Shown here: positions 58,487 to 61,730 of the stretch, in pieces
Layout: each line of letters begins with the position of its first letter
Position numbering within the stretch: the stretch's first letter is position 1
Assembly (NCBI RefSeq): GCF_002954715.1
Contig: NZ_MSCP01000001.1
Coordinates: 1-64,000 of the forward strand
Source of the DNA: Aliivibrio sifiae
Lineage (GTDB): Bacteria; Pseudomonadota; Gammaproteobacteria; Enterobacterales; Vibrionaceae
Direction of reading: 5' to 3'
Length of the DNA stretch: 64,000 bases
Notes under the pieces: generated by a model
What the model was told of the DNA's origin: nothing
Databases searched by the model: none
The model's input: only the letters and a program-made list of their open reading frames with translations
Translations under genes and position numbers: made by a program

Positions 58487-59092
58487 TTATTTATAAATAC
58501 ACAGCATATTTAAGAAGCAGTTAGCCGTATCTTCAAGCTCTTCAGCGGTGTGCTTACGGTTTGCTTGAATAAATACGGTATAACAGATGCCGTGAAGCAT
58601 TTTTGTTAAATTCTCAGGCGTATGATCATTACATACTTCATTGCGTTCAATGCCTTCAGCAAACATAGTACGAATGATCTTTTGATTATTCACCTGCGTG
58701 CTCAAGAAAAGAGGCCATACTTCTTCGCGAGTGGAAGTGCTCCATTCAAACCAAACTTTAATCCACTTATTATCAGATTGAACAGTATCAATAATGTTCA
58801 TTAATAATGTGCTAAGGTTTGAACGAACATCAACATCAAGAGAAATTGAGTCTTTAACGAATTGATGGAATTGTTCTTCTACTTTATTTAATACATCATC
58901 AACAAGATCTTCTCTTGTCGGGAAATAATTAAATACCGTTGCTACTGATACTTGCGCTATTTCAGCAACATCAGCATGGCCGCCACGACCAATACCACGT
59001 TGTGAAAATACTTCAATTGCAATATCAAGTAGTTGTTCTTTACGCTTTTCTGGAGACAGCCTTGTTCTAGGCCTTTTTTGGATCGTATCCAT
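58487..59092 (-). CDS. litR: Quorum-sensing master regulator LitR (LuxR/HapR/SmcR family)
   Basis: TetR-family DNA-binding protein at the end of the LuxO-Qrr cascade; in A. fischeri LitR activates luxR and governs luminescence and colonisation traits. The 201-aa product has the family N-terminus RPRTRLSPEKRKEQLLDIAIEVF, the helix-turn-helix ADVAEIAQVSVATVFNYFPTREDLVDDVL (about 41-68) and the helical dimerisation/ligand domain with WFEWSTSTREEVWPLF. AAGGAT is eight bases before the ATG and abuts GUUGGC, the sequence that Qrr RNAs pair with. It is divergent from hpt, the same arrangement as hapR-hpt. Confidence 0.95.
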   Translation of the reverse strand: MDTIQKRPRTRLSPEKRKEQLLDIAIEVFSQRGIGRGGHADVAEIAQVSVATVFNYFPTREDLVDDVLNKVEEQFHQFVKDSISLDVDVRSNLSTLLMNIIDTVQSDNKWIKVWFEWSTSTREEVWPLFLSTQVNNQKIIRTMFAEGIERNEVCNDHTPENLTKMLHGICYTVFIQANRKHTAEELEDTANCFLNMLCIYK

Positions 59093-59420
59093 TTTATTAT
59101 ATCCTTGCCAACAAATTATTATTTTATATAGGGTTTTATTATTATTATGCTCAATAACTTTACATAAGGCTGCTTATATATTCAACAAATATTCACCTTA
59201 TCAATTAAAAATATGACGAACTTAAAGGTTATTTATAAAAAATTGCAATGGTTTACCGTATTAATCGTTTGGATTTTAATTGATTTTATAAAATGAGCCG
59301 ATTAATCACAAAGTGGTATGAAAAACTTTTGTAATTCGACACATGTCATTCGTGGTTTTGTTGTAAACTATATAGGTCTAAATCCTACCGAGGGTAGGTT
59401 CAACGAATAAGTGAGATGGT
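59093..59420. promoter_or_regulatory. litR / hpt divergent regulatory region
   Basis: These 328 bases hold the promoters of both genes. In the litR leader GUUGGC (complement of 59107-59112) adjoins the ribosome binding site and matches the conserved GCCAAC of Qrr sRNAs. TTATCAAT at 59198-59205 is an exact half-site of the LuxR/HapR consensus and could serve autoregulation. Near hpt, CCTACC/GGTAGG (59384-59398) forms a six-bp hairpin 22 nt before the ATG. Confidence 0.5.
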
Positions 59421-59948
59421 ATGAAACATACAGTAGAAGTGATGATCTCTGAACAAGAGGTAAGTCAGCGAGTTAAAGAATTAGGCCAACAAATATCTGA
59501 GCATTATAAAGAATCAGAAGGCCTAGTAATGGTTGGTTTATTACGTGGTTCATTTGTATTTATGGCCGACTTAGCTCGTGCTATTGAAGCGCCGATGACG
59601 GTTGATTTCATGACTGCATCAAGCTATGGCAATAGTATGGAAAGCACTCGTGATGTTCGAATCTTAAAAGATCTTGATGATGACATTAAAGGTAAAGATG
59701 TTTTATTAGTTGAGGATATTATTGATACAGGTAATACCTTGAGTAAAGTATGCGAGATCTTATCTATTCGTGAGCCAAACTCGATTGCTATTTGTACTTT
59801 ACTTGATAAACCTTCTCGTCGTGAAGTTGATGTTAAAGTTGATTGGATTGGCTTTTCTATTCCGGATGAATTTGTTGTTGGTGTCGGTATCGACTATGCA
59901 CAGAAATACCGTAATTTACCTTATATTGGTAAAGTAGTACCTCAATAA
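59421..59948 (+). CDS. hpt: Hypoxanthine phosphoribosyltransferase
   Basis: Purine-salvage enzyme that converts hypoxanthine (and less well guanine) with PRPP to IMP/GMP. The 175-aa product has the PRPP-binding [17 protein letters not shown] (about 93-109), the [18 protein letters not shown] segment and the base-binding [22 protein letters not shown]. Length is typical (E. coli Hpt 178-182). A GTGAGATGG stretch provides a weak ribosome binding site. Confidence 0.96.
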
Positions 59949-60251
59949 TAAATATTGGATATAATTAAACAAATTATTAAAGGCGGGGGATACATCAGTA
60001 TTTTCCGTTTTTTTATTATCTATAGAACTGCTGATTATAATATATAGCTAAAAATAGGGCGGTTTGGATATATACAAAATATTTACTAAGTAAATAACCA
60101 AGTCAATTCAATATATCAGTGTGTTTATTTTGTTTTATTTTTGTTGATGATTTGTGCTTGATTATTAATCGCTAGCGGTTACAATTTAACCGTAAATCAA
60201 ATTTACAACTTACCTATTTATAGAATTAATTTTAAGTTTTAGGAGGTCAAC
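59949..60251 (+). other. hpt downstream spacer and promoter region of the small-protein locus
   Basis: About 300 AT-rich bases follow hpt. No clear intrinsic terminator is visible; GGCGGGGG near 59983 and a T run at 60010 are not joined by a good stem. Near its end lies the promoter described at 60158-60185, and the last 11 bases hold the AGGAGGT site of the leader ORF. Confidence 0.45.
60158..60185 (+). promoter_or_regulatory. Candidate sigma-70 promoter of the leader-peptide/DUF1127 locus
   Basis: TTGATT (60158-60163) and TACAAT (60180-60185) are separated by 16 bp. Transcription would start near 60192, about 60 nt before the leader ORF and 245 nt before the DUF1127 gene. Both hexamers are good but not perfect matches. 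Confidence 0.5.
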
Positions 60252-60329
60252 ATGACAGTTATTCATTCATACAAAATGTGTTGCGCCACCATTACATCGT
60301 TTACGCCTGTTAACGATCTAACTTTATAA
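60252..60329 (+). CDS. Putative 25-aa leader peptide with strong Shine-Dalgarno
   Basis: An ATG at 60252 follows AGGAGGT (60241-60247) at four bases, one of the best ribosome binding sites in the window. The 25-aa product reads MTVIHSYKMCCATITSFTPV... and ends at TAA 60327-60329. It has a Cys-Cys pair but no membrane helix or signal peptide. A hairpin follows 10 nt later and then a small DUF1127-like gene, so a leader peptide that reports on translation is the simplest reading. I know of no described homologue; it is too short for automatic ORF calling. Confidence 0.5.
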   Translation: MTVIHSYKMCCATITSFTPVNDLTL

Positions 60330-60339
60330 TTAATTCGTA

Positions 60340-60378
60340 ACCTTCTTGGCTGCGAATATTGCGGCTATCTAAGAAGGT
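60340..60378 (+). promoter_or_regulatory. Nested hairpin between the leader ORF and the DUF1127 gene
   Basis: ACCTTCTT (60340-60347) pairs with AAGAAGGT (60371-60378); inside, GCTGC and GCGGC close a GAATATT loop. No T run follows, so it is not a simple terminator. The 3' arm is purine-rich and Shine-Dalgarno-like. Ribosomes translating or stalled on the leader ORF would sit just upstream of this structure. Confidence 0.5.
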
Positions 60379-60437
60379 ATATTCCTATCTTGTTTATTTT
60401 AGTCGCGTTATTTCTAGCTATATTTTGGAGAAATATT

Positions 60438-60689
60438 ATGCGTCATTCATTATATCTACATTTAGCTACTTTATTAATTAAAGCCGATTTTGCACGAGAA
60501 GAGCGCGAATGGAAGCGAAGAATTCGTAAGGTTCAATATGAAATCCCATGGGGAAATGAATACCTTTTAAAAGACATAGGTTTACATGTTGATGGCCGAA
60601 CAATTAGTGATCTTGAAGTTCCTGAAATTAAAGCTGAACGTCAAGTTCGTCATCTTCGTCGACTCATACGTTTGCGAATAACAACGTAA
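60438..60689 (+). CDS. Small arginine-rich DUF1127-like protein
   Basis: The 83-aa product (MRHSLYLHLATLLIKADF...) contains LLKDIGLHVDGRTISD, which resembles the core of DUF1127/YjiS-like small proteins (consensus LLxDIGLxRxxI), followed by a very basic C-terminus (RQVRHLRRLIRLRI). It has no signal peptide in this form. GGAG at 60428-60431 supports the ATG at 60438. The frame is open upstream to a TTG at 60390, which would add a hydrophobic stretch. The function is unknown; alphaproteobacterial DUF1127 proteins have been linked to RNA turnover and stress. Family assignment is tentative. Confidence 0.75.
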   Translation: MRHSLYLHLATLLIKADFAREEREWKRRIRKVQYEIPWGNEYLLKDIGLHVDGRTISDLEVPEIKAERQVRHLRRLIRLRITT

Positions 60690-60690
60690 T

Positions 60691-60730
60691 AAAAAGCCAG
60701 AGAAAGAAGATGTGAATACTTTCTCTGGCT
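60691..60730 (-). terminator. Terminator of the carbonic anhydrase gene (shared hairpin with the DUF1127 gene)
   Basis: AGCCAGAGAAAG (60695-60706) pairs perfectly with CTTTCTCTGGCT (60719-60730) across a 12-nt loop. On the minus strand five Ts follow directly, making a good terminator for can. On the plus strand the stem is followed by AAATTTC, so termination of the DUF1127 transcript here would be weak. Confidence 0.75.
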
Positions 60731-60770
60731 AAATTTCTTGGTGATAAAGGACGAGTTGATTCGTTTTTTA

Positions 60771-61427
60771 TCACCCATTATTCACATGAGTGATTACAGA
60801 CATTGCTGCTTGGTAGGATATCTCTAATGACTCACGACTATGGCCTTTAACTCCAAGGTCATTTAGGACACCATCACCCATACCATATACAACTCCGTGC
60901 ACCTGAACGTCTTGACCTCGTTCCCAGGCAGTTTGCATGACGGTTGAATTACCTACGTTATAAACTTGCTCTGCAACATTTATTTCGCACAATTTATCAC
61001 CCCATTTTTCTCGAGGGATTTGACCAAATACGGTTCGATGTTTTAGATATAAATCTCTAATGTGAAGTAACCAGTTATTGATTAATCCTAACGGTGGATT
61101 TTCGATAGCAGCATTAACACCGCCACATCCATAATGACCACAAACAATGATGTGTTTTATTTTTAATACATCGACAGCATATTGCAATACGGATAAGCAG
61201 TTTAGATCGGTATGAATTACTTGGTTCGCTACATTACGGTGGACAAATAACTCTCCTGAGTGAAGTCCTGTTAAACGCTCTGCAGGAACTCTACTATCTG
61301 AGCAACCAATCCATAGGAACCCTGGATTTTGTCCTTCCTCAAGTTGGGCAAAATATTCTGGACGCCCAGCTTTAATTGATTTCGCCCATTTAGAATTGTT
61401 TTCAAAAAGCTCTTTGATCTCTGGCAT
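60771..61427 (-). CDS. can: Beta-class carbonic anhydrase
   Basis: Interconverts CO2 and bicarbonate, supplying bicarbonate for carboxylation reactions in ambient air. The 218-aa product resembles E. coli Can (220 aa): zinc ligands lie in [16 protein letters not shown] (Cys, Asp) and CGHYGCGGV (His, Cys), with the [18 protein letters not shown] and [12 protein letters not shown] motifs. The start [11 protein letters not shown] fits the family; a longer frame from 61454 adds nine residues. It diverges from a SulP transporter gene, a pairing that suggests bicarbonate handling. Confidence 0.95.
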
Positions 61428-61730
61428 TTTAAATTTTTCATCCCTTAAATACATAAGAAGAAGGGGTTTTACCTAAACTTCTTTCTGTTAAAAACGTCAA
61501 CAGGTTTATTTACTATACACAATGTTACAATTTCAATCTGCTAAAAAGTTACTCTAAAAGCACTCATCTGAGGAGTAGAAGCTTGAAATAAGGCGCTTTA
61601 TGGTGAGTATTAGATAAATAGGACATAAGGAAACGTGAATGGTTCTAATTAACTATTATGAGAGGTAAGTTACATTTGTTAAATTAAGCATCTTATCTTT
61701 GAGTTCATTATTTATTGCAGGGAGTGATTT
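61428..61730. promoter_or_regulatory. can / SulP transporter divergent promoter region
   Basis: This 303-bp interval has no credible ORF. TTGAAA at 61583-61588 with TATTAG at 61608-61613 (spacing 19) is a possible promoter for the transporter. Nothing comparable stands out for can. AGGGAG at 61719-61724 is the transporter ribosome binding site. Confidence 0.35.

Follow-up and report, generated by a model that had tools for sequence, protein, structure and literature searches.

In Aliivibrio sifiae a gene for an arginine-rich protein of 83 residues is preceded by a short leader ORF and a nested hairpin, and the question that this arrangement raises is what the leader senses, if anything, and how it might set the output of the small protein. 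The first-pass annotation of the window (the whole 64,000-nucleotide stretch of DNA analysed here) offered an answer in which translation or stalling of the leader switches the hairpin, the Met-Cys-Cys of the leader peptide being a possible sensor of metals or thiols. Small proteins of the DUF1127 type have been connected in several bacteria with biofilm formation, phosphate and virulence (PMC12218461, PMC12501420, PMC11707872). Their triggers are little known, and a deeply conserved leader that should respond to translation suggests a hypothesis about their role.

The leader unit and its DUF1127-like protein

The promoter, the leader Shine-Dalgarno sequence (SD1), the 25-codon ORF, the nested hairpin (hairpin B) and the 83-aa ORF described in the first-pass annotation are all confirmed (Table 1), and the observation proves larger than was first claimed. 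The whole unit is held in a gap of ∼820 bases between hpt, which ends at 59948 and encodes a phosphoribosyltransferase (Pfam), and a convergent gene at 60771-61454 that by eye has the look of a carbonic anhydrase. A terminator-like hairpin is located 3' of hpt at 59979-60012 (one such site found against 1.5 expected, no excess over chance), so that transcription of the leader unit is probably independent of hpt. Taken alone, the TTGATT-16-TACAAT match is no better than chance, with 6 found in 2101 bases and 8.8 expected; a promoter-like site is seen 5' of the leader in 120 of the 129 loci of the pairing set defined below, by a loose pattern used without a chance control. The hairpin directly after the −10 box has stem sequences that differ by eye among loci and is perhaps a 5'-end stabiliser. 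In 71 loci the RNA downstream of the −10 box has on average a more stable fold than its mononucleotide shuffles (mean z −1.76), and for the leader RNA of the window z is −2.47, with 3 of 200 shuffles folding equally well. Between leader and gene no intrinsic terminator is listed in the scan of the window, which covers terminators of that kind only.

Table 1. Positions of the leader unit and its elements in the window
Feature	Position	Strand	Basis or remark
Promoter-like site TTGATT-16-TACAAT (TTGATT 60158-60163, TACAAT 60180-60185)	60158..60185	+	
Small hairpin GTAAAT/ATTTAC at predicted 5' end of transcript (start inferred)	60192..60206	+	By eye and genus alignment
Leader Shine-Dalgarno SD1, AGGAGGT	60241..60247	+	Four bases 5' of ATG 60252
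Leader ORF (uORF), 25 codons	60252..60329	+	ORF list, conservation across loci
Anti-SD1, leader codons 9-14 (Met-Cys-Cys-Ala-Thr-Ile)	60277..60291	+	Predicted to pair with 60241-60254
Segment A (AUUCGUAACC), 3 nt past the end of the stop codon	60333..60342	+	Position conserved; pairing with B5' possible
Nested hairpin B, outer stem CCUUCUU/AAGAAGG (arms CCTTCTT 60341-60347 and AAGAAGG 60371-60377, enclosing GGCTGCGA/TTGCGGCT)	60341..60377	+	Folding; genus variants
B5' arm (GGCUGCGAAU)	60348..60357	+	Covariation scan, alignment
B3' arm (UAUUGCGGCUA), partner of C	60357..60367	+	Covariation
Segment C (UAGUCGCGUUA), partner of B3'	60400..60410	+	Covariation
SD2 hairpin, AUUUCU 60410-60415 / AGAAAU 60429-60434	60410..60434	+	Pairing by eye; SD2 sequestration computed
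SD2, GGAG	60427-60430	+	Within SD2 hairpin
ORF of 83-aa arginine-rich DUF1127-like protein	60438..60689	+	ORF list, homologue searches
Inverted repeat GCCAGAGAAAG/CTTTCTCTGGC, terminator-like, between convergent genes	60696..60729	.	By eye; absent from terminator scan

The label DUF1127-like, given at first sight, is a fair one in view of the DIGL core and of the 15 out of 56 relatives that match PF06568 at E≤1 (best 5.6e-6), whereas the window protein itself matches no Pfam family at E≤1 and so stands outside formal DUF1127 membership. None of the 14 genus genomes has a match to PF06568 over the curated cut-off. PHROGs gives no family for the protein, and the NCBIfam matches, confined to single members and no better than E 0.02, are uninformative. 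A DUF1127 protein of V. alginolyticus is said to have been connected with biofilm by Feng in 2024, one citing text naming V. vulnificus. The motif LLKDIGL occupies residues 43-49, and an alignment of 56 family sequences shows D46 and G48 to be invariant and I47 at least 90% conserved. Members of the Pfam family such as YjiS and CcaF1 share with the 83-aa protein its small size, its arginine-rich character and the DIGL core, but the 83-aa family begins with a motif of its own, MRHS-YL-LA, and ends in a conserved tail, RHLRR...T (both from the 56 aligned sequences), and the window member lacks a profile match. Judged by its sequence, the protein is best named DUF1127-like.

The gene is present in 11 of 14 genomes of the genus, 151 of 197 of the family and 52 of 295 of the order, the last draw including Vibrionaceae; among the order genomes with weak matches (20 or more), f25 was left out. 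Group f2 is Moritella: the three of its proteins that were compared share 71-80 of their 83 residues with that of Moritella sp. PE36. A second set of named loci (80 kept of 95) is mostly Vibrio, plus four Moritella and Aliivibrio sifiae.

The RNA element follows the gene closely. A covariance model built from 41 sequences finds one clear site in its own genome (E 2.4e-10), and within the genus its matches coincide with the gene, with one site in each of the other 10 carriers (11 of 14 genomes in all) and none in the three genomes lacking it. These three (G008, G010 and G012) have neither protein nor element. A second match in the genome of the window (E 0.77) appears by eye to be antisense to a two-component sensor/regulator pair and was rejected. 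No Rfam family coincides with the element, whether in the window (E≤5) or in the 17 loci searched at E≤1. We also considered whether such a leader is a general trait of DUF1127 genes in the class, and rejected this: an SD-preceded ORF of 12-70 codons was found in 1 of 29 DUF1127 loci from other families, a rough control in which 30 of 45 listed matches were used, one was unparsed, and frames and starts were set by script, those of at least L251, L262 and L271 looking wrong.

The claim that the locus is undescribed stands for this locus as far as Rfam and the open-licence literature go, no title or abstract listed in searches of open-licence PMC papers describing the leader in Vibrionaceae. It does not stand for the principle, a uORF-controlled DUF1127 gene, duf1127_1 of Sinorhizobium meliloti, having already been published (PMC12218461). 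What is novel is this variant of the leader with its deep and readable conservation; uORF attenuation of DUF1127 itself is known.

Conservation of the leader ORF

Leader ORFs were called strictly when AGGAGG, GGAGG or AGGAG preceded an ATG and the frame had 20-55 codons and ended 90-160 nt upstream of the gene. Among the 135 loci of the leader set, or 134 without the duplicate L107, such an ORF is found in 118/134, compared with 2/2680 dinucleotide shuffles, and after thinning to less than 85% identity in 86 of 94; a conserved uORF with its own SD upstream of the gene, as in uORF attenuators, is thereby seen. Slightly wider limits give 78 of the 80 named loci, whose genomes partly overlap the other set. 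Thirteen loci left out of the leader set (L111-L123, eight of them repeats of used loci and five, L111-L114 and L116, new) all have a strict leader. The six f10 loci fail the strict test because their SD is CGAGG-like, the short ORF still being there. For pairing analyses 129 of the 135 loci were used, L107, L148 and L083 having been dropped and L064, L090 and L143 having no called leader. In these the two other frames hold stops in 126/129 and 121/129 cases, frame 0 being open by choice.

The first-pass annotation had tied its proposal to conservation of the frame and of the hairpin in other Aliivibrio. Both are kept in 11 of 11 genus members that have the gene, with a strict SD in 10 (the exception, L002, reads ATGAGGT), and the conserved leader RNA extends far beyond the genus to Moritella and three further families of the order. 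The loss of conservation on which the proposal was to fall, as regards sequence, thus did not occur.

The peptide is another matter. Leader pN/pS ranges from 0.43 to 1.21 over ten groups (0.70 in the genus Aliivibrio), and called leaders range from 21 to 67 codons. We conclude that the leader peptide, as its sequences read, is weakly conserved, whereas the RNA pairing is kept. A stalling peptide was considered and rejected, there being no conserved C-terminal residues by eye, this wide range of lengths, and the repeats of L141. In that locus, from family f13, tandem in-frame 24-nt repeats (KQARCALT units) extend the leader to 67 codons, with frame and stop position kept.

The stop codon, in contrast to the length, is a fixed point. 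A motif like segment A, defined by a loose pattern, begins 0-6 nt past the stop in 116/129 loci (324/2580 mononucleotide shuffles in the control), hairpin B starts ∼15-30 nt past it, and the start of the B5' arm is at most 36 nt away in 123/129, L073 among the six exceptions being a misplaced B. In four g8 loci (L087, L088, L103 and L108) the stop is 46-60 nt before B5', compared with the usual ∼20. The leader ends early or looks broken in L041, L064 and L083, where segments A and B are still there; in L041 another frame has a tail like that of its relatives, so that a frameshift or sequencing error is possible. In L090, also of g8, the gene is there (about 43% identity), but neither a leader ORF could be called nor a B core seen.

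RNA pairing within the leader

We compared native with swapped pairing for 120 window pairs in 55 Vibrio loci, five Vibrio loci plus identical ones having been dropped. Three helices rank highest: B5':B3' (z −13.7), B3':C (z −7.8) and SD1 with codons 7-14 (z −7.6). Next come the pairing of the leader SD to the end of the leader and that of C to SD2. Because z values of up to +6.5, opposite to the expected sign, also occur for some pairs, z serves for ranking and carries no calibrated significance. Covariation is seen for B5':B3', for B3':C and for the SD1 helix, and B3' can be in no more than one of them at a time.

SD1 is predicted to pair with about codons 7-16 in every clade, with clade means of −12 to −17 kcal/mol. 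The native partner beats the median swap in 119/125 loci (89/94 after thinning), and by clade in 55/58 for Vibrio, 18/23 for g8, 7/7 for f12 and f13 together and 6/6 for f10. The contrast is absent in Aliivibrio (5/10), g3 (3/6) and Moritella (4/10), in Aliivibrio and Moritella because the sequences vary little. The helix is within the best 10% of codon shuffles in 98/129 loci.

This helix also bears on the cysteines. At least one Cys occurs in 124 of the 129 leaders, which would suit a peptide that senses thiols, metals or Cys-tRNA through stalling. The Cys codons, however, are concentrated at the SD1 pairing, with 113 seen in 603 codons inside the helix and 17 expected, a 6.6-fold enrichment, while outside it they are at background, 92 of 3567 with 102.4 expected; conservation of Cys as an amino acid independent of the RNA is accordingly not seen outside the helix. 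CysCys is found in 11/129 leaders only. Helices are equally strong without Cys in them (−15.1 kcal/mol, n=29) and with it (−14.8 kcal/mol, n=100). In L043 Tyr replaces Cys, and its SD region reads GCGUAAAUG, compared with GCGCAAAUG in L027, so that the SD1 pairing is kept. Given also the weak constraint on the peptides, which diverge, we reject Cys-dependent sensing of metals or thiols, the most improbable of the explanations considered here. The Cys codons would be present because their RNA pairs with the leader SD and, to judge by sequence, Met-Cys-Cys would reflect this pairing and not the chemistry of the residues. Frequent cysteines of a leader peptide thus look here like a side effect of base pairing, which is a warning against reading leaders by eye.

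For B3':C, in which the B loop and 3' arm pair with C, the native energy is −16.4 kcal/mol compared with −10.7 for swapped partners, and the native pair beats the median swap in 127/128 loci (93/94 after thinning). By clade this is 57/60 for Vibrio, 15/23 for g8, 5/6 for g3, 7/7 for f12 and f13 together and 3/6 for f10; in Aliivibrio (5/11) and Moritella (5/10) the contrast is absent because of low variation. In a fixed register 501 cells are paired and 451 expected, a figure reached in 0/2000 permutations of 59 Vibrio and Moritella loci, and the pair types change, as at one Vibrio position where G-C, U-A, C-G and A-U all occur (register set by duplex folding). L073, with its misplaced B, was dropped from the pair-type analysis and from the SD2-opening and SD2-sequestration analyses below.

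RNAalifold on the alignment of 41 sequences returns hairpin B alone, with double changes in 1/7 pairs, and these sequences show little or no variation in the B5' core. Such invariance would suit a riboswitch, an RNA thermometer or a protein-binding autoregulatory site to which the ORF is incidental, and the DUF1127 protein CcaF1 is reported to bind RNA (PMC12501420). Against this, an ORF that recurs so regularly (118/134, and 86/94 thinned) is hardly accidental, no Rfam family matches at the element and the B loop can pair with C; we judge an element of this kind, with an incidental ORF, very unlikely.

The remaining helix, A:B5', is less secure. It is sterically plausible and near-isoenergetic with hairpin B in many loci, and before thinning the native pair beats the median swap in 74/107 loci (Vibrio 46/54, g8 8/16; scan z −2.0). 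After thinning this falls to 43.5/94, and the covariation support is gone. The helix forms little at equilibrium in g8, f12, f13 and f10, and in f10 there is almost no pairing (−1.3 kcal/mol). We have withdrawn A:B5' as a proven helix.

With 118/134 strict leaders and the conserved B3':C and SD1 helices, the leader ORF and its RNA structure appear to be placed so as to set small-protein output, in keeping with the original proposal.

Hiding of SD2 and a possible attenuator

The bases immediately 3' of C pair with the SD2 region, and C abuts the helix so formed. Opening SD2 costs a mean of 11.5 kcal/mol with hairpin B formed and A covered, and 6.8 kcal/mol in the B3':C state, which is cheaper by at least 0.5 kcal/mol in 120/128 loci and dearer in 1; forcing B3':C uses up C as a partner of SD2, so that this contrast partly restates the geometry. 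In 65/128 loci the native sequence hides SD2 more strongly than 14 or all of its 15 shuffles, and in 63/128 its sequestration is unexceptional. At equilibrium SD2 is mostly hidden, whether A is masked or free (clade means of the unpaired fraction 0.06-0.32). Since it is hidden whatever A does, a switch, if there is one, must act during transcription.

These features are best read as a translation-sensing uORF attenuator like toiL and duf1127_1, with a sign that we infer. More specifically, we give a probability of about 0.56 to a cis-acting attenuator coupled to the leader ORF, in which synthesis of the DUF1127-like protein would depend on translation of the leader and not on the leader peptide. 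When the leader is initiated and completed normally, the terminating ribosome would cover segment A, hairpin B would form, and C would be free to help hide SD2, keeping protein low. When initiation or elongation fails, through few ribosomes or ribosome inhibitors, A would pair with B5', B3' would pair with C, the SD2 helix would be shortened and the small protein would be made. Leader translation would in this scheme favour hairpin B and low output. A:B5' is the weakest link of the mechanism, and because it is unsupported the low-output sign is its least certain step.

The sign could also be the reverse, with leader translation needed to expose SD2 by coupling, so that good translation would raise the protein. 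All computed states leave SD2 mostly hidden, A:B5' has no covariation support, and in unconstrained folds masking of A, as by a terminating ribosome, slightly eases SD2 opening, by a mean of 0.7 or 1.4 kcal/mol; the easing is above 0.5 kcal/mol in 67 or 86/129 loci, and a change of more than that size in the opposite direction is seen in 15 or 13/129. With the competing helices made explicit, however, the B3':C state makes SD2 opening cheaper in 120/128 loci, and in both published relatives the gene is induced when uORF translation fails or stalls (PMC12218461, PMC12121999), which makes this reversal unlikely.

Comparisons with known systems bear on both the attenuator and its sign. The report of Kothe et al. 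2025 on S. meliloti duf1127_1 (PMC12218461) describes repression by uORF translation, induction by tetracycline and chloramphenicol, a uORF RBS that can pair with its own early codons, and a synonymous mutation showing that the RNA and not the peptide matters. Common to the two systems are a uORF before a DUF1127 or DUF1127-like gene and a hairpin between RBS and early codons, for which the native pair here beats the median swap in 119/125 loci; the locus described here differs in its covarying B/C segments and hidden second SD, its other protein family and its other host class. The same report describes premature, probably Rho-dependent termination with C-rich elements, and finds no role for a stem-loop between uORF and gene when mutated. 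Rho-dependent attenuation, with termination unless the early codons are blocked, would agree here with the related gene family, the similar hairpin and the intrinsic-terminator scan of the window, but it leaves the covarying B3':C helix and the hidden SD2 unexplained, and we regard it as decidedly unlikely.

The attenuator reading also has a counterpart in toiL, the uORF of the E. coli topAI-yjhQP operon, for which Baniulyte and Wade 2025 (PMC12121999) report a response triggered by several ribosome-targeting antibiotics and propose that the translation state of the uORF alters RNA structure at the downstream ribosome-binding site. Such control at the downstream RBS is the proposed common feature. 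In toiL, by contrast, the uORF sequence itself is in the repressive hairpin, stalling is sequence-specific and the target is a toxin-antitoxin operon, whereas here the leader is upstream of B/C, the target is a DUF1127-like protein and the peptide is unconserved (PMC12121999 for toiL).

The conserved pairing suggests that output of the small protein is tied to how well ribosomes work. In translational attenuators of the ermC type, too, leader segments exchange pairing partners, and the last of these pairings involves the SD of the target. They differ from the present leader, in which no conserved stalling peptide is seen, an SD1 helix lies inside the leader and conservation is broad and chromosomal.

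More tentatively, and with more doubt than confidence, the element, which is conserved in five or more families of the order, could be an ancient sensor of ribosome status whose response to faltering translation is release of the DUF1127-like protein. The two SD helices and the switchable B/C core would then gauge how fast ribosomes load on, and finish, a throw-away ORF. If this were true, DUF1127-type proteins would act in the response to translation stress and, taken with S. meliloti, translation-state control would be a recurring trait of DUF1127-type genes, reached by different RNA routes in two classes.

The genes around the unit vary. In the window (58487-61454) it is flanked by hpt and the carbonic anhydrase-like gene, and in several Vibrio loci, L013, L017 and L018 among them, it lies beside a gene that by eye is aldo/keto reductase-like; between the window and several Vibrio loci, the leader and the small gene move together despite these differing flanks.
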